Of a stretch of 29,730 bases of DNA, positions 3,411-29,730 are shown piece by piece. Numbering within the stretch: position 1 is the stretch's first letter; every line of letters starts with the position of its first letter. Below the pieces are notes generated by a model that was given only the letters and a program-made list of their open reading frames with translations, searched no databases and was not told where the DNA came from. Source of the stretch: a virus. The DNA lies in the IMG/VR virus record IMGVR_UViG_3300032293_000711, positions 1-29,730 of that record; one strand, written 5' to 3'. The position numbers were made by a program, and so were the translations under genes.

Positions 3411-3614
3411 ATGTATAGAATTGGGGATATAGCGTTTGATAATTATTATGTTAGAAGTGTGGAATTAGAATTAGAAAGTTGTGATTTAACAATAAAAGTA
3501 ATATTCCATAAAGACGATATAACAAGAGAAAAACATTACAAGATACAAACAGATTGTAATGTGGATATAAATAAGTTGATTGATAATTTAAGTGAGATAT
3601 TAAAAGATGAGTAG
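3411..3614 (+). CDS. Small hypothetical protein between adhesins
   Basis: A 67-residue protein ([16 protein letters not shown]) with beta-hairpin-like charged strands ([20 protein letters not shown]) and a C-terminal helix ([15 protein letters not shown]). It starts 4 bases after the Gly-rich adhesin and its end overlaps the next adhesin by 8 bases, so it is almost certainly translated as part of the cluster. There is no signal peptide or membrane segment. I do not recognise the family. Adhesin chaperone or small virion component are the options suggested by its place. Confidence 0.65.
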
Positions 3615-4716
3615 AGTATTTTTAAGAAAACAATTTTCTAACTATCTTGGTGAGAACCGAGCGATAGATGATATTATTGTTAGATTTGTTGCTGATGGTC
3701 CATCACCATCACCTACTCCTGTTCCGGTGACCCCTACTCCAACGCCGACCCCGTCAATTACTCCAAGTATCACCCCTTCAGTTACTCCAACAAGGACTTT
3801 AACGCCTACTCCTACAAAGACAAGCACACCAACTCCTACAAGGACACCTGCTCCTGCTTGTGATATTACTTATACAGAATTACCATCACCAACTCCAAGT
3901 CCTACCCCTACGATTACACCGACATTAACTCAAACACCAACACCAAGTCCTGCTGTTGTATATGACCCTAACGCACAATTATTCTTTAACGCAATTACAG
4001 CATCGGGTGGAACTTTAACAAACACAGAAAAAACAGCAGTAAATACTTTGGTTATTGACTTAAAAGGATATGGATTATGGACCAAAATGATTGGTTTATA
4101 TCCAGTTGTTGGAACTACAAGTGTTACTCAATCATTTAACTTAAAAAATCCATCACAATATAATTTAGGATTTAATGGAACTTGGGCTCACACGGCAGGT
4201 GGAGCAGAACCAAGTGAAATAAATGGATATGCTACAACGGGAATTATTCCATCTGTAATCAATTTCCAATTAAGCGGTTCAATTCACTATTCTATGTATA
4301 TTACTGAAAACTATGCTTCTGGTGGATATGATATTGGTGTATCAAATAACGGACAAGATTTTGCTTTAATTAGTTCTTATGGAGGTAATAATACAGCCTA
4401 CATAAATGTAGGTTCTGGATATTTAACAATCGCTAATGGTGGAAGCACAAAGAAAAATTGGTTAATGACGAATAGTGGCGGAACATCAAACATTTATAGA
4501 GATGGTGTTTCACTTGTTAGTGGTTCATACGCAATAAACACAGGTTCAATAACACAGATGTTATTATCCGCCATCAACTTAAATGGAATACCAAATCAAT
4601 TTAGCGGAAGGAGTTGGGCTTTAGCATCAATAGGATTAGGTATGGACGCAACAGATGCTACAAATTACAATAACGCAGTCGTAGCATTCCAAACAACATT
4701 AGGAAGACAAAATTAA
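3607..4716 (+). CDS. Tail fibre/adhesin with PT-repeat linker
   Basis: A 369-residue protein. Residues 1-35 are a short head ([20 protein letters not shown], then IVRFVADG). Residues about 35-118 are two Pro-Thr-Ser blocks broken by a short Cys-containing insert ([10 protein letters not shown]). Residues about 118-369 form a globular domain beginning [17 protein letters not shown] and [22 protein letters not shown], with [19 protein letters not shown] and a closing [15 protein letters not shown]. That domain resembles a widespread phage tail-fibre domain with the DLKxxGLWxKM and NLKxPxxxxxxF patterns. It sits inside the adhesin cluster, overlapping the gene before it and followed after 4 bases by another PT protein. 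It is likely a virion surface adhesin; receptor unknown. Confidence 0.7.
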
Positions 4717-4720
4717 AGAT

Positions 4721-5368
4721 ATGGCAACACAGATACAATTACAATCCACGAACTATAACGGACAAATAGCCGATATTACCTTCTATCCTTGTAGTGGTGG
4801 AACTATTAGTTTGGGTAATCAAACAATACCATATACTTACACAAATGATAATTATGAGGGAACTTATGATTTGTATTTTTCAGCGTTTAATCAAACTTGC
4901 CAATTAGTAATTATTTGTCTTAGCCCAACACCAACGCCTACTTTAACACCAACAACGACACAAGGTATAACCCCAACCCCAACCCCAAGTGTTACGGCAA
5001 CATTAAGCCCTACACCAACGAATACAGGGACACCTACTAATACTCCAAGTGTTAGTCCAAGTGCTACACCAACGATTACCCCAACCAATACAAGCACACC
5101 AACCAATACTCCAAGTGTTAGTCCAAGTGCTACACCGACTATCACTCCAACCAATACAAGCACACCAACCAATACTCCAAGTGTTAGTCCAAGTGCTACA
5201 CCGACTATCACTCCAACAAACACGGGGACACCTACAAATACACCAACGAGCACTTTAACTCCAACACCAACACCGAGTGGAGCAGTAGTTGGAGGACATA
5301 AATTACAAGCCGAAAACGCTGATTTCTTACAAGCAGAAAACGGAGACGATATAAACATAGAACATTAA
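4721..5368 (+). CDS. PT-repeat virion surface protein
   Basis: A 215-residue protein. The first 68 residues are a small beta domain ([21 protein letters not shown], then [10 protein letters not shown]) with three or four Cys. Residues 69-188 are almost entirely Pro-Thr-Ser-Asn, including three copies of a 22-residue unit encoded by a 66-bp tandem repeat. The last 27 residues contain a doubled LQAENxD motif ([18 protein letters not shown]). It looks like an anchoring domain carrying a long flexible stalk and an acidic tip. It begins 4 bases after the adhesin gene. I know no function; an adhesin that lost its terminal domain, or a spacer protein, are both possible. Confidence 0.62.
5041..5238 (+). 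repeat. 66-bp tandem repeat, three copies
   Basis: Copies start at 5041, 5107 and 5173 with the period repeating exactly. Copies 1 and 2 differ at only a few third-codon positions, and copy 3 diverges over its last 20 bases. Each encodes a 22-residue unit ([18 protein letters not shown] plus four residues). Near-identity at the DNA level suggests recent expansion by slippage or unequal recombination, so copy number may vary between relatives. Confidence 0.9.
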
Positions 5369-8719: not shown

Positions 8720-9351
8720 TGATTTACAACGTTTTACTTATTAGTGAGGACAAACTGAAAGCGAATACTCCAATCAACGAAAACGTGGATACACAGGAGT
8801 TACGATTTTCAATTCAACAGGCACAGCAGATTTTCATACAGGAAAGCCTTGGAACGAACCTTTACGAATACATTTTAAGTTTGGTAAGTAATGGTGATAT
8901 TGATGACCCAAGTAAAATCCATTACAAAGAGTTATTAAATAACTTTATTCAACCTACTCTTATATCTTATGCTTACTATTTGGCGTTAGACAATTTTTAT
9001 ATCAAGTTTGTAAATATTGGTCTCCAACAAATGCGTAGCGAACAGGGAAATCCTGTTACAATTAAAGATTTGGTTTATCTTAAAAACAACGCAAGAGATA
9101 ATGCGCAGTTCAACGATAATTTATTACGCAGACATCTTGTATTTAACAACCAAAACTTTCCTCAATATACTCTTACAACAAACAACGGACAACTTATTCC
9201 AGAGTTTGGTGGAGCGTTTAAGTCACCTATCACTTTACCACCTGCTGGTAATGGAGGTAGAATAGTTGGTGGTGGAAACTATGGTGCTGGTATTTTGGGT
9301 AGTTGCGGAATACCCTGGTGGTATAGTGGGAGAAATGGTAATATCTCTTAA
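8719..9351 (+). CDS. Head-tail connector (neck) protein
   Basis: A 210-residue protein beginning MIYNVLLISEDKLKANTPINENVDTQELRFSI, with QQAQQIFIQESLGTNLYEYIL. This resembles a DUF6712-like neck/adaptor protein family common in Bacteroidetes phages: an all-helical N-terminal domain of about 110 residues. Here it is followed by an extended Gly/Pro-rich C-terminus (PPAGNGGRIVGGGNYGAGILG). It starts on the last base of the portal gene (TAATG type), so the two are translationally coupled. Its stop at 9349-9351 overlaps the stop of the minus-strand endonuclease-type gene, leaving no space for a terminator between the convergent units. Confidence 0.72.
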   Translation: MIYNVLLISEDKLKANTPINENVDTQELRFSIQQAQQIFIQESLGTNLYEYILSLVSNGDIDDPSKIHYKELLNNFIQPTLISYAYYLALDNFYIKFVNIGLQQMRSEQGNPVTIKDLVYLKNNARDNAQFNDNLLRRHLVFNNQNFPQYTLTTNNGQLIPEFGGAFKSPITLPPAGNGGRIVGGGNYGAGILGSCGIPWWYSGRNGNIS

Positions 9352-9803
9352 AGAGTTTTTCTTTGATTTAATCTTTGTTCTGTTGGTGTAGCCCATCTAC
9401 AATTAGAAGGTTCATAATTACCATTTACATCTATTCTATCAATAGAATATTCCGGTGATGGTTTCTTACCCATATCACTAATAAAGTTCTCAAACGAGTT
9501 TAACCATCTATCACAAACGATTATTCCTCTACCTCCATAATTTGGATAATCTTTTACATTTTTATTGTAGCATCTTTTTTTCATTGCTTTCCAAATACTA
9601 TATTCACGTGTTCCTGTTCCTCCGTGTTTATAGTTTCCTACTCTTGTTTCATTATACAAACAACCACAGGATTTAGTTTTACCTGATTTAAGATTACATA
9701 AATAATAAGTTCCCGTATTTCCACAATCACATACACATTTTACCTTTTTATTTTTACCAGGTATTATTTCAATAATTGATAATCTATTATATTTTTCCAT
9801 CAC
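9348..9803 (-). CDS. Mobile HNH-type endonuclease-like protein with Cys cluster
   Basis: A 151-residue protein. Residues 1-50 hold a Cys cluster (CVCDCGNTGTYYLCN, then SCGCLYNETR), likely a zinc-binding element. Then come HGGTGTREYSIWKAMKKRCYN, YPNYGGRGIIVCDRW, SFENFISDMGKKPSPEYSIDRID and NGNYEPSNCRWATPTEQ. This chain of motifs belongs to a very common family of free-standing phage genes usually described as HNH- or AP2-like endonucleases. The SIDRID...NGNY.PSNCRWAT part lines up with the HNH finger of ordinary homing nucleases (EIDHKDDNR...NLEWVT). It abuts the next minus gene with no spacing. It is probably a selfish homing element; activity cannot be judged from sequence. Confidence 0.7.
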   Translation of the reverse strand: MMEKYNRLSIIEIIPGKNKKVKCVCDCGNTGTYYLCNLKSGKTKSCGCLYNETRVGNYKHGGTGTREYSIWKAMKKRCYNKNVKDYPNYGGRGIIVCDRWLNSFENFISDMGKKPSPEYSIDRIDVNGNYEPSNCRWATPTEQRLNQRKTL

Positions 9804-10286
9804 TTAAGCATCTTTATACAAGATGTTCCTAACAATTAGGGATATTTGACTTTTATGTATGTTAAACATTTTACCTAATTTTACACAATTAAAATCTTTG
9901 GAGTATTTTTTGTAATTTCCTCTAATATACCTTATATCATCATCTGTAAGTTTGTGTGGTGATATATCACTTTGTCTGGCTCTATCTCTATTCTCCTCAC
10001 CAGTAACCCACTCTAAATTGGTATAATGATTATTAAATCTATTATCGTCCTTGTGGTCTATCTCGGGTAAATCATTAGGATTTGGTAGGTATAATTCACC
10101 TACTAATCTATGAATATAAATTGTTTTCTTTTTACCATTTTTGTAAATATCAACACAATAATACTTATCCTTTATAGGAACACCATTTTTGTAATTTCTT
10201 TTAATACGTGGTTTTAATTGTTTTCCATTACGGAATACATCACCATACTCATTTACAAAATAATCTGTATCTCTAAATCTTTTCAT
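9804..10286 (-). CDS. HNH homing endonuclease (NUMOD4/HNH_3/HTH layout)
   Basis: A 160-residue protein with the standard free-standing HNH layout. A NUMOD4-like N-terminus (YFVNEYGDVFRNGKQLKPR) is followed by a beta region (YYCVDIYKNGKKKTIYIHRLV). The HNH core has EIDHKDDNRFNNHYTNLEWVT (His in EIDH, Asn in NRFNN and NLEW) at about residues 75-97. A DNA-binding helix-turn-helix lies at about 112-155 (KLTDDDIRYIRGNY, LGKMFNIHKSQISLIVRN). These enzymes nick or cut at target genes and spread themselves. It lies downstream of a terminator that ends the small-gene operon, has no clear promoter of its own, and is directly followed by a second endonuclease-like gene. The intron-bearing capsid gene is about 8.5 kb away. 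Confidence 0.88.
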   Translation of the reverse strand: MKRFRDTDYFVNEYGDVFRNGKQLKPRIKRNYKNGVPIKDKYYCVDIYKNGKKKTIYIHRLVGELYLPNPNDLPEIDHKDDNRFNNHYTNLEWVTGEENRDRARQSDISPHKLTDDDIRYIRGNYKKYSKDFNCVKLGKMFNIHKSQISLIVRNILYKDA

Positions 10287-15805: not shown

Positions 15806-15915
15806 AAATACAAAGACAAAGAAAATCAAAACACAATAGACGTAAAGATAAAGTTTATGTAATACTCCAATCTATAAAGTGGAGTTTAGATTTACACAAC
15901 TATTTTGGATTATGA
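15802..15915 (+). CDS. Very small basic protein (37 residues)
   Basis: The frame reads MKIQRQRKSKHNRRKDKVYV, then ILQSIKWSLDLHNYFGL. It is joined on both sides by ATGA overlaps: its start with the stop of the 175-residue gene (15802-15805) and its stop with the ATG of the large terminase (15912-15915). Two such overlaps strongly suggest that it is translated. Ten or more Lys/Arg in the first 20 residues suggest nucleic-acid contact. It may be a packaging accessory, or serve to couple translation of the large terminase. Confidence 0.7.
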   Translation: MKIQRQRKSKHNRRKDKVYVILQSIKWSLDLHNYFGL

Positions 15916-17063
15916 GTGTTAAAACTACGATAGTATTTGAGAAATTATTAGAGAGTGATGAACTTGGAAAAAGGATTGTCGTAGCACAGGGTGGAAGTAG
16001 AAGTGGTAAAACGTTTAACATATTGATATATTGGATTTACAGGTTACTCAAAGAAAACAACAAGACATTATCAATTGTAAGAAAAACTTTACCATCATTA
16101 AAAAACTCCGTATTAAAAGATTTAGTTGAAGTATTAGAAATCTTTGGAATATATGACCCAACAAAGTTCCACAAACAAGATGGATACTATGAATTGGGGA
16201 CAAACATAATCAACTGGTTCTCTGTTGATGAACCACAGAAACTACGTGGTAGTAAAAGGGATTGGTTATATTGTAATGAGAGTAATGAGTTAAACATAGA
16301 GGATTGGAACCAACTTATATTTAGAACGACAGACAAGGTAATCTTGGACTTAAACCCGAGTGAATTATCCTGTTGGGTATATGACTTGGAAAATAGGGAG
16401 GATTGTTTTTATTTTAAGACGACTTGGAGAGATAATCCATTTGTGGATAAAAATATTATCAAGGAGTTAGAAAACCTAAAAGACAAAGATGAGAACCTGT
16501 ATCGTATCTATAACTTGGGTGAGAAGGGTATAGCAACAACTCTGGTATTCAACAGATGGAATACAATACAACAAATACCCGATGGTTGTAAATTACTTGG
16601 ATATGGAGCGGATTTTGGATACAACGACCCTTCAACACTTGTGGCAGTTTATCAAAGGGGAGATGAGTTGTATTACAAAGAACTTATCTATGGTAAAAAT
16701 CTAACCACACAGGACTTTATCTACAAGATAAAAGAATTGGATATAGATAAAACTGATACGATATGGTGTGATAGTTCCCAACCGGCAACCATAGAGGAAA
16801 TGAGGAGGGAAAAAATAAACGCAAAACCTGTAAATAAGAAAACTATTTTACACGGAATAGATTTAATGCGTAGGCATCATAACTATATTTTAGAGACATC
16901 AAAGAATATCTTATATGAGTTTGGTTCTTACAAGTGGAAAACTGACCGAGATGGTAATTTGTTAGACGCCCCGATGGATACGGACAACCATACAATAGAT
17001 AGTATCAGGTATGTATTAGAAAGCACAATAGGTAATAAACCGAAAAAGTTTGTAATAGTATGA
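15912..17063 (+). CDS. terL: Terminase large subunit (ATPase-nuclease)
   Basis: A 383-residue packaging motor protein. The ATG at 15912 is chosen because it overlaps the previous stop and gives MSVKTTIVFEKLL; a longer frame from 15879 has no support. Walker A is GGSRSGKT at residues 27-34. The Walker B/catalytic region is RDWLYCNESNEL. The motor domain ends with VILDLNPSELSCWVYD. The C-terminal RNase H-like nuclease shows GADFGYNDPSTLVAVY, TIWCDSSQPATIEEMRRE and TDNHTIDSIRYV, placing the acidic residues expected for a two-metal nuclease. The order matches Terminase_3-type proteins. It is somewhat short but complete. It overlaps the chaperone-like gene by 4 bases. Confidence 0.93.
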   Translation: MSVKTTIVFEKLLESDELGKRIVVAQGGSRSGKTFNILIYWIYRLLKENNKTLSIVRKTLPSLKNSVLKDLVEVLEIFGIYDPTKFHKQDGYYELGTNIINWFSVDEPQKLRGSKRDWLYCNESNELNIEDWNQLIFRTTDKVILDLNPSELSCWVYDLENREDCFYFKTTWRDNPFVDKNIIKELENLKDKDENLYRIYNLGEKGIATTLVFNRWNTIQQIPDGCKLLGYGADFGYNDPSTLVAVYQRGDELYYKELIYGKNLTTQDFIYKIKELDIDKTDTIWCDSSQPATIEEMRREKINAKPVNKKTILHGIDLMRRHHNYILETSKNILYEFGSYKWKTDRDGNLLDAPMDTDNHTIDSIRYVLESTIGNKPKKFVIV

Positions 17064-17746
17064 TAGAAATAAAATTAGATGATAGGAAAATTAAAGTTGA
17101 TGAGGAATTGACTATTAAAAAATACCAAGAGATAAGTAAGAACCCAATAAAGTATAATGATAATATTGAGATATTGTCTTTGTATTTGGATATACCAACT
17201 GATGAACTTAAAGAATTACCTTACAAAGACGTAAAGTTTATTGAGGCATACCTTACACAAAAATACACCAAAGATGTTGATAAACAAATTGTTTTTACCT
17301 TCAACTACAAAGGTGTTGATTATGGTTTGGAAAACGACTGGAAAAATATGACTTGGGGTCAGTGGATTACTATGGAGGTTATATCTCAACCTGATAGAAT
17401 AGCAGATAATATAGCGCATATTATGGCATTACTTTACAGACCGATTAAATCACAAAATGGAACAAAATATACTTTGATGCCATACAAAGAAAAAGAGGTT
17501 GAGGAGAGAAAACTATTGTTCCAAGAATTACCAATTAAATATTGGTTTGGGGCAGCCACTTTTTTTTTTCTCATAGTAAAAATATACACACAAGATATAA
17601 AGAGTTCTTTGGATACGAGGAACCGAGTGGAGAAACTACTGAAACCGATGAGGAGGATATTACCCAAATGGGCGCAACCGAAGCCACTTTACGCTTCTAC
17701 TTTCAACTCACTTATGAACTCGCAAATAGAGACATTACTAAAATAG
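17060..17746 (+). CDS. Tail assembly chaperone-like protein, frame-0 product
   Basis: A 228-residue protein starting MIEIKLDDRKIKVDEELTIK, with a helical, acidic first two thirds (YQEISKNPIKYNDNIEIL, KFIEAYLTQKYTKD, WGQWITMEVISQPDRIADNI, IMALLYRPI) and then a hydrophobic patch WFGAATFFFLI encoded by a T10 run (17560-17569). The frame-0 tail is basic (KLLKPMRRILPKWAQPKP). It is placed between terminase and neck genes, upstream of the tape measure. Siphovirus tail chaperones are usually made as short and frameshifted long forms, and the T10 run with an open -1 frame of 98 codons fits. The homology call is tentative; frame-0 continuation for 58 codons after the run is unusually long. Confidence 0.6.
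   Translation: MIEIKLDDRKIKVDEELTIKKYQEISKNPIKYNDNIEILSLYLDIPTDELKELPYKDVKFIEAYLTQKYTKDVDKQIVFTFNYKGVDYGLENDWKNMTWGQWITMEVISQPDRIADNIAHIMALLYRPIKSQNGTKYTLMPYKEKEVEERKLLFQELPIKYWFGAATFFFLIVKIYTQDIKSSLDTRNRVEKLLKPMRRILPKWAQPKPLYASTFNSLMNSQIETLLK
17560..17569 (+). promoter_or_regulatory. T10 slippery site (putative -1 ribosomal frameshift)
   Basis: Ten consecutive T, read as T-TTT-TTT-TTT in frame 0, allow tandem -1 slippage with perfect re-pairing. Moving back one base opens the frame that ends with the ATGA overlap at 17862-17865. A one-base homopolymer indel in the assembly would produce the same picture. Confidence 0.55.
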
Positions 17747-17865
17747 AACAAATAGAAAATACTAATTTATATTTATGTCTAAATACCGCATCTTTAATGA
17801 AGGATATGATTATTAAAGAACGTAATGAATTAAAGAAATTAGAAAACCAGAATAAAACAAGATGA
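17569..17865 (+). CDS. Tail assembly chaperone-like extension (-1 frame)
   Basis: Read after -1 slippage at the T10 run, this gives 98 more residues and a total product of about 268. The segment is acidic and Thr-rich (GYEEPSGETTETDEED), then helical (RFYFQLTYELANRDITKIEQ, MKDMIIKERNELKKLENQNK). It has no ATG near its beginning, so independent translation is unlikely. Its stop overlaps the ATG of the next gene by ATGA (17862-17865), which shows that this frame, not frame 0, is joined to the operon. In known chaperone pairs the long form carries the tape-measure-binding tail; that role is by analogy. Confidence 0.6.
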   Translation, partial: SHSKNIHTRYKEFFGYEEPSGETTETDEEDITQMGATEATLRFYFQLTYELANRDITKIEQIENTNLYLCLNTASLMKDMIIKERNELKKLENQNKTR

Positions 17866-18413
17866 ACGAATATATAACCTTTCATAAGATTTTAGATTAC
17901 TTACAGGAGTGGGTAGATGGCTCACCCATAATGAATACCTTTGGATATGGTAATCTTGTAGATTTTGGTAAAAACATATCAGGGACTACAACACCAAATT
18001 ATCCTTTCTTATTCGCTGTTCCACAGGGAATTACCTATGATGAGAATACAACAACTTATCAACTTACACTTATCTTTGCCGATATTCTAAACACAGATGT
18101 TGATAATGAAAAAGATTGTGTGAGTGATATGTCCTTACAAGCCAGAAGGTTCTTATCATCTATCAAGTGGGGTAGTAAAACTTATCCGTATATGTATGAT
18201 AATATGGATTGTATTATACCAGCACAAGCCATACCATTTTTTGAGCGTATGAGCGACCACGTGGCAGGTGTGGCATTAGATACAAACATCATTATATTTG
18301 AGGACTTAAACGCTTGTGATTATTATGTTAGTCCAACACCAGTAGTTAGTTCATCACCAACACCAACAATCACTCCTACACCGACTATAACCCCATCACC
18401 AACACATACATAA
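17862..18413 (+). CDS. Neck/tail-completion-type protein with PT-repeat tail
   Basis: A 183-residue protein. Residues 1-155 (MNEYITFHKILDYLQEWVDG, FLFAVPQGITYDENTTTYQL, FADILNTDVDNEKDCVSDMSLQ) show an alpha/beta layout that I associate with a head-tail joining family in Bacteroidetes phages, adjacent to an HK97 gp10-like gene as usual. From about 160 to the end a bare Pro-Thr-Ser tail ([19 protein letters not shown]) is added with no domain after it. It starts within the stop of the -1 chaperone frame (ATGA) and is followed after 1 base by the next gene. Role inferred from position. Confidence 0.6.
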   Translation: MNEYITFHKILDYLQEWVDGSPIMNTFGYGNLVDFGKNISGTTTPNYPFLFAVPQGITYDENTTTYQLTLIFADILNTDVDNEKDCVSDMSLQARRFLSSIKWGSKTYPYMYDNMDCIIPAQAIPFFERMSDHVAGVALDTNIIIFEDLNACDYYVSPTPVVSSSPTPTITPTPTITPSPTHT

Positions 18414-19013: not shown

Positions 19014-20438
19014 ATGAGTGTAATTTTTACAAATACCCCCGAACAATTCCAGCCCGTATTGAGTGATGGAATATTTTTTACAGCATCTGCTGATACAACC
19101 AATACATACAATTTTAGATATATCTATGACTTGTATGTGAATAATGATTTAGTATTTCAAGGTAAAGCAACTCCTAACCCTTTTGGATTGGGGATTATTG
19201 ATTTACAACAGATATTAGAAACATATTGTTTTAATAACGTTATAGCCGATTGGAACGGAACACCAATTTACACCCATACAACATTTCCATTTTCCAAACC
19301 TTACTATGATGAGACAATCACATATTTCATCAAGTGTGGATATGAATACTCATCAACTCCATTAGGAGCGATTACAGGATTTACTGGTAATGGTAATGCG
19401 ATTGGAACACCAGGTTATTCATCACAACAATACAAAACTTTCCGTTCTACTATGGGAGTAAATGGTAGAGCAACACAACAGGATTTTAACATAGACCCAT
19501 TTGTATTATCAGGTGACCCAACAACAACTAACCCTACTACTTCTGGTTTGTTTTTAACTAACTCTCCAAGAAATAGAAACATACAACCAACAGAGTATTA
19601 CACATTAGGATTTACAAACTACTTTATGGGTGGAGCAATATTGAGTGAGCCTTACTATGTGAAATACACGTTCTATGATAATCAAGGAGTAGAGATTACA
19701 GGAACAACTTATGAGAACATTACAACTAATGGTGGAGGACCGAGAACATCAAGTAGTCAGGTTTATCAATCAATTTATTTAATTGACCCAATTAGTGCTT
19801 CTACTTGGAATACACTTTATGTGGGAGCAGGACCCAAGAATATTCCTAATTTCCCACCTAATACCGCTCAATACACTATTCAGTTATTCGGGGTATTCAC
19901 AGGGACAACAGCACCAATACAACCCACTCCAACCCCTACTCCGTCGCCTACCTCAACACCACTAACTCCAACCCCAACTCCTACCCCGTCAGCAACTCCT
20001 GGTTGTAGCGGTTGTAGTGAATACGCAGTTACACTTACAGGTGGGTCATCAGCAACAATCTACATCGTAAATTGTGCTAATAATCAAACACAATCATTTA
20101 ATGTTGTTTCAGGTCAGTCATACGTAGTGTGTTCTTGTATCACACCATATAGTGATAGTTTGGGTATTGAGGTTCAACTATTAGGACCTTGTAGTGCTCC
20201 CGTTCCATCACCAACTCCTACTCCGTCAAATACTCCTTCACCCGAAGCGATATGTGTTTGTTTGGAATATGAATTAAATACAGGGGCTTCTTTTGGAATT
20301 GTAAATTATACAGATTGTAATGGAAACCCAGCACAAATCTACATAAACCCTAATGATACTCAATACATCTGTGCTTGTGAAAACACACCAGTAGGATTTG
20401 GTGATGTAACCATTACAGAGAGCGGACCATTTTGTTAA
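19014..20438 (+). CDS. Tail protein with PT linkers and two Cys-rich beta modules
   Basis: A 474-residue protein. Residues 1-300 form the main domain (MSVIFTNTPEQFQPVLSDGI, FRYIYDLYVNNDLVFQGKAT, GLGIIDLQQILETYCFNN), of a kind I associate with tail proteins of Bacteroidetes phages. Residues about 303-328 are a PT linker. Two similar modules follow, each about 60 residues: CSGCSEYAVTLTGGSSATIY to LLGPC, and CVCLEYELNTGASFGIVNYT to ITESGPFC. A shorter PT linker (PSPTPTPSNTPSP) separates them. Each module has a Cys pair, a central DC or NC, and a closing GPxC, suggesting disulphide or metal cross-links. It is followed after 13 bases by what looks like a companion tail domain. Confidence 0.68.
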   Translation: MSVIFTNTPEQFQPVLSDGIFFTASADTTNTYNFRYIYDLYVNNDLVFQGKATPNPFGLGIIDLQQILETYCFNNVIADWNGTPIYTHTTFPFSKPYYDETITYFIKCGYEYSSTPLGAITGFTGNGNAIGTPGYSSQQYKTFRSTMGVNGRATQQDFNIDPFVLSGDPTTTNPTTSGLFLTNSPRNRNIQPTEYYTLGFTNYFMGGAILSEPYYVKYTFYDNQGVEITGTTYENITTNGGGPRTSSSQVYQSIYLIDPISASTWNTLYVGAGPKNIPNFPPNTAQYTIQLFGVFTGTTAPIQPTPTPTPSPTSTPLTPTPTPTPSATPGCSGCSEYAVTLTGGSSATIYIVNCANNQTQSFNVVSGQSYVVCSCITPYSDSLGIEVQLLGPCSAPVPSPTPTPSNTPSPEAICVCLEYELNTGASFGIVNYTDCNGNPAQIYINPNDTQYICACENTPVGFGDVTITESGPFC

Positions 20439-23554: not shown

Positions 23555-26500
23555 ATGGCAAAAAACATAGCACTTACCCTTACCTTAAATGGTGTAGAAC
23601 AAACAATAACATCGGTTCAACAATTAGAAACGGCGATTAAAGATGCGAGAACAGCACTAACCACAACTTTTGAGGGAACACAAGATGAGTTAAAAGCGTT
23701 TAACAAACAGATAAGCGATGCTCAACAATCGTTAGATACTTTAAGAAATAAAAAAGGACAAGAGGAAAGTATTAAAAGTATTGGTAATCTTGCCAAGGTA
23801 GGTAGTGCTGTAACCAGTTCGTTCGCAGCGGCAACTGCGGCTGTATCATTATTTGGTGGAGATACTGAAAAGGTTAGTAAGGCAGCAGAACAAGCCCAAA
23901 ACGCTTTAACTCTTGCTTTAACAGGTAGAGAAATCGCAGAAGGGGCAGTAGCCATCGCAACAGGAGTAGCAAACTTACAAACGACTTTACAGACCGCATC
24001 AACGAACGCAGCAAACGCAGCCACCAAAAGGTTCTATGCCACCCTTGCGGCGAACCCATATACAGCCATAGCAGTCGCTATTGGTATTGTAATCGCTGCC
24101 GTATATGCTCTTACAGAGGCGGAAAATGAAAACTTGGAATTACAAAAAAAACTTATAGGTGTTAGACAAAATGCGGCTAAAGAATTAAAAGCACAACTTA
24201 CAATTCTTACTGATAATGTAAAAACTCAAAACTTGGAGTTAGATGCTATTGAGGCATTAAAGAAATCATACCCTGGTTTTAATGCGTTTGTGGATAAAAA
24301 TAACCAACTCAATTCTGCGGGTATTGTATTCTTAAAAGCCAAGATTGGTTTGATGGAACAAGAGGCGATAATTCAAGCAGGACTTGCCATCAAAGCAGAA
24401 GCACAGATAAAGTATGAGGAGAGAATAGCAGAGATAAATGCCAGGAAGGCAACGTTCTTTAAGAGCCAAGGTAGATTAGAAGCAGAGAACGCTGTAGATA
24501 GATTTTTGGCTCAACAGGAATTAGAGAAATCCACTAAAGCGGCAACCCAAGCCATAGCAACAGCAACCCAAAAGAGCGAACAATATTCAGGGGCTATAAG
24601 ACAGGGTAATAAGATTTTAGAAAACCAAGTTCAGTTAGAGGAAGCAGGTAAGAAAGCCAAAGAGGACGCTGCCGATGCGATTGAGAAACAAAGACAAGAA
24701 TATCTTAAATTGTTAGACGCTCAAAATGAGGTTATTAAAAACTATGGTAAGTTAAATGAGGGTGAGGTTGAAATATCAAATGAAACTTTGGATAGAGCCA
24801 AAGCGTTTGAGGAAAAAGGGAAAAAACTATTAGAGGATAGAAAAACGTTTTTTACAAGATTGAATAATGAGTTGGTTGATGAGACCCAAAAATTGTTATT
24901 TGATATTATCCCAACAGGTGAGGAGTTAAAATCTATAGAGGACATCTATGTTGAATTGTTTTTTAGTATTGGTAGTGCTGTATCATCAGGGGCTGTTAAA
25001 CTATTAGATGAAAATGGTAAGGCAATTAAACTTACATTAGATAATGTTAAAGAATTACAAAAAGAGGCAATTGATGGATTAAAAAAACAACAAGAGGAAA
25101 TATTAAAGGATACAAGTTTAACAAAAGATGAAAGAGCAATTAGAGTATTAAATATAGATAGACAAATAGTTTTATTAAAAAAAGATTTATCATCAGCAAC
25201 TCCAGAAGCACAAAACGCTTTAATTACCTTTTATCAAAGAATAGCCAAAACCGCAGAGATTTATGGTAAGGGTATTAAAATTGGGGATAGGATTGTATCA
25301 CCAACAACGACAAAAGATATTACCACAACTTTAAGTGATTTAACAAAAGAAGTAGAGAAAATATTAAACGACCCAACAATATTGGCGGGATTAAAAGATA
25401 GTGCCATAACTGATGTTGTTAGTAATCTATTCAAGTTCCCTCAATTATCTATTGATAGTTTTGGTGGGTCAAAAGAAGCATTAGACAAATATAATGAGGG
25501 TGTAAAAATAGCCAAACAAAACTTGGTTGATTTTGGTAAAGCACAAGCGGAACAAAGAATAGAGAGTATTAAAGTAGCGAAAGAATTAGAAAACGAAACT
25601 CAAAAGTTATTAAAGTTAAGACAAGAATTGGGTGCTACTGCTGATATGAGGACTGGAACTGAAGGATTAGTTCAACTATCAAAAGAACAGATTACCTCTT
25701 ATATTGAGTTTGTTAAAGACAAGGTAAGCCAAGAACCAGAATTACTTGCTGGTTATTTGGAAAGTGTGTATAAAAAGAGAGGTGAGTTATTAGAGAGATT
25801 AGGAGAACAAGGGGTAATAGATTTGTTCGCTGGTATATCAACAGGTTTTAACGACTTAAAAGGTAAGAGTGAGGAGGACTTGGTTAAACTAATTTCTTAC
25901 TTGGAAACTGCTGCCAAAGATATTGAGAATAAGTTTGGAAAACCAGCAGCACAATCATTTATTGATTTAGCAAACAACGCTAAAAAAGCACTAACATCAA
26001 TCACAGACCAAAAGTTTTTAGCATCATTACAAAAAGGTATTACAGAGTTTATTTCAACGTTGAGTGATTTAAGTTCAACTATAAATGATTTTTACTCATT
26101 ACAACTTACAAAGTTAGAAAACCAAAACACCAGAATACAAGCACAGATTTTGGGTGATAGTGTAAAGAGTAATGAAAAAAGATTAGAACAAGAAAAAATA
26201 TACCAAGAGGACAAAGCCAAATTGGAGAAAAAGGCAGCACTTCGTTCATTACAGATTTCAAGGGCTACAGCACTTGCCAACGCCGCTGAAAGTATCACCA
26301 AGATTTTCGCTAAAAACGAACCTGTATCTGCGGCAATATTCGCAGCAATTGTGGCAGCAAACAACTTGGTTCAAGTAGGTATTATTTCCGCTCAAATTGG
26401 AGAATTGGAAACATACCAAAGAGGAGGTGTAATTAAAGGACAGGGCGGATTATTAGTAGGTCCAGCACACGAACAAGGTGGTATTAGATTTGGTGCTATG

Positions 26501-26749
26501 GGATTGGAATTAGAAGGTGGAGAAAGCGTAATCAATCGTCAATCTACGATGAACTATGGAGCATTACTATCACAGATAAATCAAAGTGGAGGTGGAAAAC
26601 CTTTAGTTACTAATAATTTTGACGATAGTAGAATATTAGAAGCACTTGCTAAACAAAGAAGCGAACCTATTAGGGCTTATGTTGTAGAAAGTGAAATCAC
26701 AAATAAACAGGGTATAACCAAAAGATTAGAACAATTATCGCAGTTCTAA
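23555..26749 (+). CDS. Tape measure protein
   Basis: A 1064-residue protein, the longest here, setting tail length and acting in DNA entry. The N-terminus has coiled-coil character (VQQLETAIKDARTALTTTFE, QISDAQQSLDTLRNKKGQEE). An Ala-rich hydrophobic region with a membrane-like stretch (TAIAVAIGIVIAAVYAL) lies near residues 170-190. Long helices of Lys/Glu/Gln repeats follow over 190-880. The end contains GGVIKGQGGLLVGPAHEQGGIRFG and ESVINRQSTMNYGALLSQIN, a typical tape-measure C-terminal signature. It sits at the end of the tail module and begins 6 bases after the tail-tip gene, with an A-rich leader. Confidence 0.88.
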   Translation: MAKNIALTLTLNGVEQTITSVQQLETAIKDARTALTTTFEGTQDELKAFNKQISDAQQSLDTLRNKKGQEESIKSIGNLAKVGSAVTSSFAAATAAVSLFGGDTEKVSKAAEQAQNALTLALTGREIAEGAVAIATGVANLQTTLQTASTNAANAATKRFYATLAANPYTAIAVAIGIVIAAVYALTEAENENLELQKKLIGVRQNAAKELKAQLTILTDNVKTQNLELDAIEALKKSYPGFNAFVDKNNQLNSAGIVFLKAKIGLMEQEAIIQAGLAIKAEAQIKYEERIAEINARKATFFKSQGRLEAENAVDRFLAQQELEKSTKAATQAIATATQKSEQYSGAIRQGNKILENQVQLEEAGKKAKEDAADAIEKQRQEYLKLLDAQNEVIKNYGKLNEGEVEISNETLDRAKAFEEKGKKLLEDRKTFFTRLNNELVDETQKLLFDIIPTGEELKSIEDIYVELFFSIGSAVSSGAVKLLDENGKAIKLTLDNVKELQKEAIDGLKKQQEEILKDTSLTKDERAIRVLNIDRQIVLLKKDLSSATPEAQNALITFYQRIAKTAEIYGKGIKIGDRIVSPTTTKDITTTLSDLTKEVEKILNDPTILAGLKDSAITDVVSNLFKFPQLSIDSFGGSKEALDKYNEGVKIAKQNLVDFGKAQAEQRIESIKVAKELENETQKLLKLRQELGATADMRTGTEGLVQLSKEQITSYIEFVKDKVSQEPELLAGYLESVYKKRGELLERLGEQGVIDLFAGISTGFNDLKGKSEEDLVKLISYLETAAKDIENKFGKPAAQSFIDLANNAKKALTSITDQKFLASLQKGITEFISTLSDLSSTINDFYSLQLTKLENQNTRIQAQILGDSVKSNEKRLEQEKIYQEDKAKLEKKAALRSLQISRATALANAAESITKIFAKNEPVSAAIFAAIVAANNLVQVGIISAQIGELETYQRGGVIKGQGGLLVGPAHEQGGIRFGAMGLELEGGESVINRQSTMNYGALLSQINQSGGGKPLVTNNFDDSRILEALAKQRSEPIRAYVVESEITNKQGITKRLEQLSQF

Positions 26750-29302: not shown

Positions 29303-29730
29303 ATGAACGCGCAAGAAGCATTACAAAAAATATCTAACTTGTTAAACATCAATTTTAATTCTAAAACAGAAAAGTTCTTTACCACTAAATTAGTAGATGG
29401 TATAACTGAAATCACAAACAACAAAACCGATGACTTTATGATTGGTGATGAGGTTTATGTAGTAGGTGAGAGCACTTTAGCACCAGCGTTAGAAGGTGAA
29501 TACACTACCCGTGAGGGTCTTGTAATCTCTTTGGATACTATGGGTAAAATCGTATCTATGAGCGAAAAAGCAGAGGACGAAAGTAACACAACTGAAATAG
29601 AAATTGAAATTGGAGATGAGAAAGAGGATATGATGTCCGCAGCAGAATTGACTGACGGAACAAAGATTGAAACAGACGAAACAGGTGATTTTAAGGTAGG
29701 ACAAAAACTCTACGTTATTACAGAAGCCGG
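29303..29730 (+). CDS. Scaffold-like capsid assembly protein, N-terminal part (continues at base 1)
   Basis: The gene starts MNAQEALQKISNLLNINFNS two bases after the protease gene and runs off the window end. It continues in the same frame through the repeated bases to the stop at 466 (256 residues in total). This part holds the first copy of the beta-rich module (DFMIGDEVYVVGE, then APALEGEYTTREG) and an acidic spacer (EIEIEIGDEKEDMM). The order protease, scaffold, capsid is standard for tailed phages. The two-module N-terminus could bind the protease or the capsid. Functional assignment rests on position plus the coiled-coil C-terminus. Confidence 0.65.
   Translation, partial: MNAQEALQKISNLLNINFNSKTEKFFTTKLVDGITEITNNKTDDFMIGDEVYVVGESTLAPALEGEYTTREGLVISLDTMGKIVSMSEKAEDESNTTEIEIEIGDEKEDMMSAAELTDGTKIETDETGDFKVGQKLYVITEA
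29608..29730. repeat. Terminal direct repeat, right copy
   Basis: Identical to bases 1-123. It should be removed when the circle is closed, giving 29,607 bp. Confidence 0.9.

Follow-up and report, generated by a model that had tools for sequence, protein, structure and literature searches.

How does a phage gene work when a pure run of T's divides it into two reading frames, both of which stay open for a long distance beyond the run? Genes for tail assembly chaperones are described as classical frameshift genes, and a gene of a virus recorded in IMG/VR (IMGVR_UViG_3300032293_000711) seems to present an unusual variation on that theme. The stretch analysed here, called the window, is the whole 29,730 nucleotides of this record. 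A first-pass annotation made from the letters of the window had pointed out ten consecutive T's joining two frames of a tail-chaperone-like gene, and several questions follow. Is the run a programmed switch or an accident of sequencing? Are the products of both frames of use to the phage? If the frame is switched, is it the ribosome or the RNA polymerase that slips?

The window ends in an exact direct terminal repeat of 123 bases (positions 1-123 and 29608-29730) and therefore probably represents an entire phage genome in circularly closed form, with one gene, from 29303 onwards, crossing its ends. The gene in question lies on the plus strand among structural genes. Directly upstream of it is the gene for the terminase large subunit (15879-17063, plus strand), which overlaps the frame-0 open reading frame in an ATGA, and further downstream, after five open reading frames, comes a gene for a probable tape measure protein of 1064 amino acids (23555-26749, plus strand), so named from its size and place since its PHROG matches are weak only. 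Long stretches rich in proline and threonine (SPTPTPT) occur in the open reading frames of the structural region at 3607-5368, 17862-18413 and 19014-20438, and two small open reading frames on the minus strand within 9348-10286 resemble, by eye, homing endonucleases of the HNH type. The sole pointer to a host is the Nonlabens phages among the relatives described below, which suggests a member of the Bacteroidota.

The frame-0 open reading frame (17060-17746, plus strand) encodes 228 amino acids, comprising an ordered N-terminal domain of about residues 1-170 followed, past the T run, by a basic tail of 58 residues. The T10 run itself (17560-17569, plus strand), which is the only run of at least eight T's in the 29,730 bases, starts 500 bases inside this frame with the third base of an ACT codon and contains two in-frame T_TTT_TTT heptamers (17560-17566 and 17563-17569). 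Past the run, the -1 frame is open for 98 codons plus a stop (17569-17865, plus strand) and is predicted to form a C-terminal domain that is mostly helical; its stop shares a second ATGA (17862-17865, plus strand) with the start codon of the following gene (17862-18413). Upstream of the run the -1 frame is open for 10 codons only, and frame +1 meets a stop after one codon past it. Joining the upstream part to the -1 extension gives a fusion of 269 amino acids, and the dual-coded overlap of the two frames (17570-17746, plus strand), which was analysed through its substitution patterns, would give the two products C-termini of opposite charge, with a net charge of +7 in the frame-0 tail and -5 in the -1 part. 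The ten T's, the 58 and 98 codons and the terminal ATGA are thus all as the first-pass annotation had read them.

If the run is a programmed site, normal reading would produce the 228-residue protein with its basic tail, and slippage on T10 would send some of the product on in the -1 frame, yielding 269 residues of which the last 98 are predicted to be mostly helical. On the analogy of G and GT in lambda, a fixed ratio of the two forms may serve tail assembly.

Such a site should be recognizable in relatives, and at least 145 distinct genes were assembled from IMG/VR and from P12024S and P12024L, isolated phages of Nonlabens (Persicivirga) sp. IMCC12024. In two of the wider scans the best 80 of 154 and the best 80 of 550 matching loci were taken; the set was built from 71 genes (the gene was present at 114 of 115 loci, after exclusion of seven phages used for comparison) and 76 genes (82 of 82 loci), with two in common. 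The first three relatives from IMG/VR, with 100, 86 and 82% identity, all have T10 and the same two frames. Among the matches listed, the run is T9 in 111 of 145 genes and T10 in the other 34, and none of these genes has T7, T8 or T11 at this position. Its first T is position 1 of a codon in 7 genes, position 2 in 88 and position 3 in 50. In this comparison of sequences it is the relation between the frames that is preserved, not the codon phase, and the frame needed is always -1. The -1 frame stays open for 81-106 codons past the run in 143 of the 145 genes, and frame 0 for 25-79 codons. One of the two exceptions (L198) is truncated where the DNA ends; the other (L196, the gene at about 1460) has a -1 stop 5 codons past T10 and is the only relative with an early stop in this frame, its near relatives L204 and L205 being open, so that the stop may be a variant, decay or an error. 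Between the clade of the window and the genes L005-L009, T10 becomes T9 through substitution, with no insertion or deletion at the run, and on a tree of the 71 genes drawn from the part preceding the run, T9 and T10 have been exchanged about eight times. The first-pass annotation had proposed a tail-chaperone-like programmed frameshift at a pure T run, to be checked by aligning relatives for conservation of the run, and had named a run length that fuses the frames, or relatives with one continuous frame, as findings that would speak against it. The proposal is supported by a T9 or T10 run, with an unchanged -1 relation, in every one of the 145 distinct genes, and a frame-fusing length was seen in no relative found.

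No cultured-phage relative was found by blastn, and tblastn found just the Nonlabens pair, both phages being listed under two accessions each, and none when the relative L043 served as the query. In GTDB genomes 236 stretches fit the search pattern, of which none was confirmed, and the nine phage records inspected, the two Nonlabens phages and seven more, contained no other case of a T run; the A7 and A8 matches in FpV9 and RAP44 lie a few codons from the end of a gene, ahead of another long gene. Flavobacterium phage 6H was considered as a relative and rejected, its structural match being weak (E 8e-4, TM 0.28) and its run being T6 only, with an immediate stop in the -1 frame. One record met along the way, Dulem virus 31 (PP511318.1, L064), is classed in the Microviridae, yet has genes for a terminase, a sheath and a tape measure protein.

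Is the frame-0 tail a product in its own right, or does only the -1 product matter, frame 0 being open past the run by chance? In five clades the synonymous difference of the -1 frame is lower in the overlap than after the frame-0 stop (0.12 and 0.40, 0.03 and 0.23, 0.20 and 0.39, 0.19 and 0.36, and 0.12 and 0.43, respectively), and a sixth clade of near-identical sequences is uninformative (0.05 and 0.05). Variable columns were counted in the 8 of 11 clades that have no length differences: 13.8% of the -1 wobble positions vary in the overlap, about half as many as the 30.7% beyond it (p = 2e-8), and the frame-0 wobble positions, which are expected to be more variable in the overlap if frame 0 is still read there, vary in 15.2% of cases in the overlap versus 8.9% after it (p = 0.01), the p values being guides because independence of the columns was assumed. 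Evidence of selection in both frames is weak in the second subfamily (24.4% of -1 wobble positions in the overlap versus 30.8% after, p = 0.04). The openness of frame 0 was also compared with chance by redrawing the -1 codons synonymously with the codon usage of the phage itself in 20,000 draws. For the window, frame 0 is open for at least 58 codons in 0.8% of draws (P = 0.008), and the same procedure on 33 genes, which are related so that the tests are not independent, gave P < 0.05 in 21. In the remaining 12 the length is not surprising, as a chance opening would have it, and the tails of the remotest relatives bear little resemblance to that of the window. Nevertheless, chance is an unlikely explanation of the frame-0 tail, because the -1 wobble positions are constrained where the frames overlap and the motifs of the tail are preserved across the clades of the subfamily to which the window belongs. 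Substitution patterns thus indicate that both frames of the overlap are under selection in most clades of this subfamily.

Two further explanations would do without a programmed switch. Homopolymers are prone to error, and the true run might be one base longer, making the gene one continuous frame. A continuous form seems indeed to be present in distant phages, judging from protein models: three single-chain proteins of 258-267 amino acids in BFVD (A0A6J5N0W0, A0A516L611 and A0A516L5A8) match the frame-0 model with E values from 2e-12 to 3e-6 and that of the -1 part weakly (E 0.03-0.08, probability 0.91-0.98). The reservation of the first-pass annotation about relatives with one continuous frame is accordingly borne out in these three distant proteins, with a weak match over the second half, and in none of the 145 genes. 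These single chains support the existence of the long product, and they also imply that not every member of the fold family uses the switch. As an account of the run, an error of sequencing or assembly has a negligible probability and is rejected for the family on the evidence of the relatives: in all 145 distinct genes, which come from two cultured phages and numerous IMG/VR datasets, T9 or T10 breaks the frame in the same direction, the T9 and T10 genes differ by substitution rather than by insertion or deletion, and frame 0 past the run is under selection. Alternatively, there might be two separate overlapping genes, the -1 part being begun independently by re-initiation. This is how the homologues in P12024S and P12024L were deposited, as two hypothetical genes each (genes 38/39 and 40/41; L004 and L063), and the window does have a TTG in the -1 frame just ahead of the run. 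However, the -1 frame, searched between the stop upstream and the eighth codon beyond the run, lacks ATG in 59 of 71 genes and in 12 of the 71 has neither ATG nor GTG nor TTG, hence no possible start, and with independent starts nothing else would maintain the T run, which makes separate genes very improbable. A programmed arrangement yielding two products from one gene, as read from comparison of the sequences, is by far the most probable interpretation.

Which machinery makes the switch? The RNA polymerase might add a U in some transcripts, or ribosomes might shift to -1 at U_UUU_UUU on a uniform mRNA, giving the same two products. On sequence evidence we lean slightly towards slippage by the RNA polymerase, which appears likelier than a ribosomal slip because the floor of nine T's holds in all codon phases, the ribosomal heptamer is poor and no RNA structure is shared. 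Ribosomal frameshifting is what lambda, HK97 and others are reported to use in such genes, and a T9 or T10 run in any of the three phases always includes an in-frame T_TTT_TTT. Yet a ribosome would need 7, 8 or 9 T's depending on the phase, and the minimum seen is nine in every phase; in the two phases where 7 or 8 would suffice, none of 138 genes has fewer than nine. Nine bases is the run length that PMC1088944 reports for transcriptional slippage across many bacterial genomes, and from this paper the threshold for a conserved A/T run at a frame junction was taken; runs that reach it, T9 or T10, occupy the junction in 145 of 145 genes. U_UUU_UUU is reported to be far less prone to shifting than A_AAA_AAG in E. 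coli (PMC5009743); further background came from PMC10885494, PMC3711429, PMC4615864 and PMC10367356. When 41 of the 145 genes were folded, no common, possibly stimulatory, RNA structure was found beside the run (mean z -0.07 for the 50 bases upstream, -0.27 and 0.02 for the 60 and 100 bases downstream), and a consensus structure of 20 genes had 6 pairs and no covariation. In the window taken by itself there is a strong hairpin immediately before the run (z -2.3), which is missing from the sister genes L002 and L003, and a z of -1.98 downstream. Early stops in frame +1, another sign of transcriptional slippage, gave no signal, the first stop coming on average 3.6 codons past the run versus 4.2 elsewhere. 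The transcriptional reading is held to moderate strength because protein constraint in two frames can fix the outer T's, which a ribosomal mechanism could equally invoke, and because frame +1 has no excess of early stops; ribosomal frameshifting thus keeps somewhat less than an even chance.

Is the protein a tail assembly chaperone? Neither half belongs to a named Pfam or PHROG family, and there is no convincing match among PDB sequences. For the frame-0 protein, a model with pLDDT 78 and order as far as about residue 170 gave no match in a Foldseek search of the PDB at E 0.001; in a second look by alignment with 140 chains, none reached Z 5, and the best was weak, the HK97 tail assembly chaperone 2ob9 with Z 3.3 over 73 residues. 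No link was found by hhalign to gene 38 of Flavobacterium phage 11b, to the annotated chaperone of FpV9 or to HK97 gp13. From the two-product anatomy, the gene order (a neighbouring terminase gene, other genes of the structural region and, at 23555, the probable tape measure gene) and this structural match, we infer that the product may be tail-assembly-chaperone-like.

Comparison with known systems shows both likeness and difference. As in lambda G/GT and HK97 gp13/gp14, the gene stands among structural genes, and two overlapping frames with a -1 shift at a slippery site, here deduced by comparison, would let a common N-terminal part end in either of two C-termini, the shift coming late in the first frame. 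The chaperone genes of lambda and HK97 adjoin the tape measure gene, lying directly upstream of it, whereas the gene of the window adjoins and follows the terminase gene, and because of this place we call it chaperone-like rather than a member of the lambda/HK97 type. Another difference is the extent of the overlap: from the last -1 stop to the frame-0 stop there are at most 20 codons in lambda G, 16 in HK97 gp13 and 8 in 11b gene 38, as against 58 codons past the run here, and the impression of the first-pass annotation that so long an overlap of two open frames is unusual holds good. Gene 38 of 11b shares with the gene of the window a homopolymer followed by a long -1 frame (A9, then 115 codons) and is situated two genes ahead of a large gene; it differs in that the run is of A's, only 6 frame-0 codons follow it and homology is not detected by hhalign. 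That A9 and its 115-codon frame (L069:17864-18528) are in themselves an unannotated chaperone-like arrangement. Runs of at least nine A/T linking two frames are also reported for Thermus dnaX, Shigella mxiE and IS elements; these are cellular or IS genes, and slippage has reportedly been measured for some of them, whereas for the phage gene it is deduced from sequence. The nearest cultured counterparts are the homologous genes of P12024S and P12024L, which likewise follow the terminase gene, with T9 and an 81-codon -1 frame, but have a frame-0 tail of 25 codons and are annotated as two separate hypothetical genes.

A long selected frame-0 tail and an invariant T run, both recognized by sequence comparison, thus distinguish this gene family from lambda G, HK97 gp13 and 11b gene 38. 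In the open-licence literature, from which subscription journals are mostly absent, no published description of a T9-T10 run or of transcriptional slippage in tail chaperones was found; PRFect lists a slippery motif named 'six', so that prediction tools may already know sites made of a pure run.

What would this mean for the phages? We tentatively suggest, at nearly even odds, that in a large phage group including phages of Flavobacteriia, slippage of the host RNA polymerase on an invariant T9-T10 run sets the ratio of the chaperone forms through two mRNAs, about 60 dual-coded codons giving each form its own selected C-terminus. The family appears to be an example of a frame switch whose unshifted product retains a selected tail of its own, and such a switch would explain the annotation of these genes as pairs of hypothetical fragments. 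It offers a widespread natural system for asking which slips in a phage chaperone gene, the ribosome or the RNA polymerase, and since P12024S and P12024L have been isolated and their host is known, a test is feasible.
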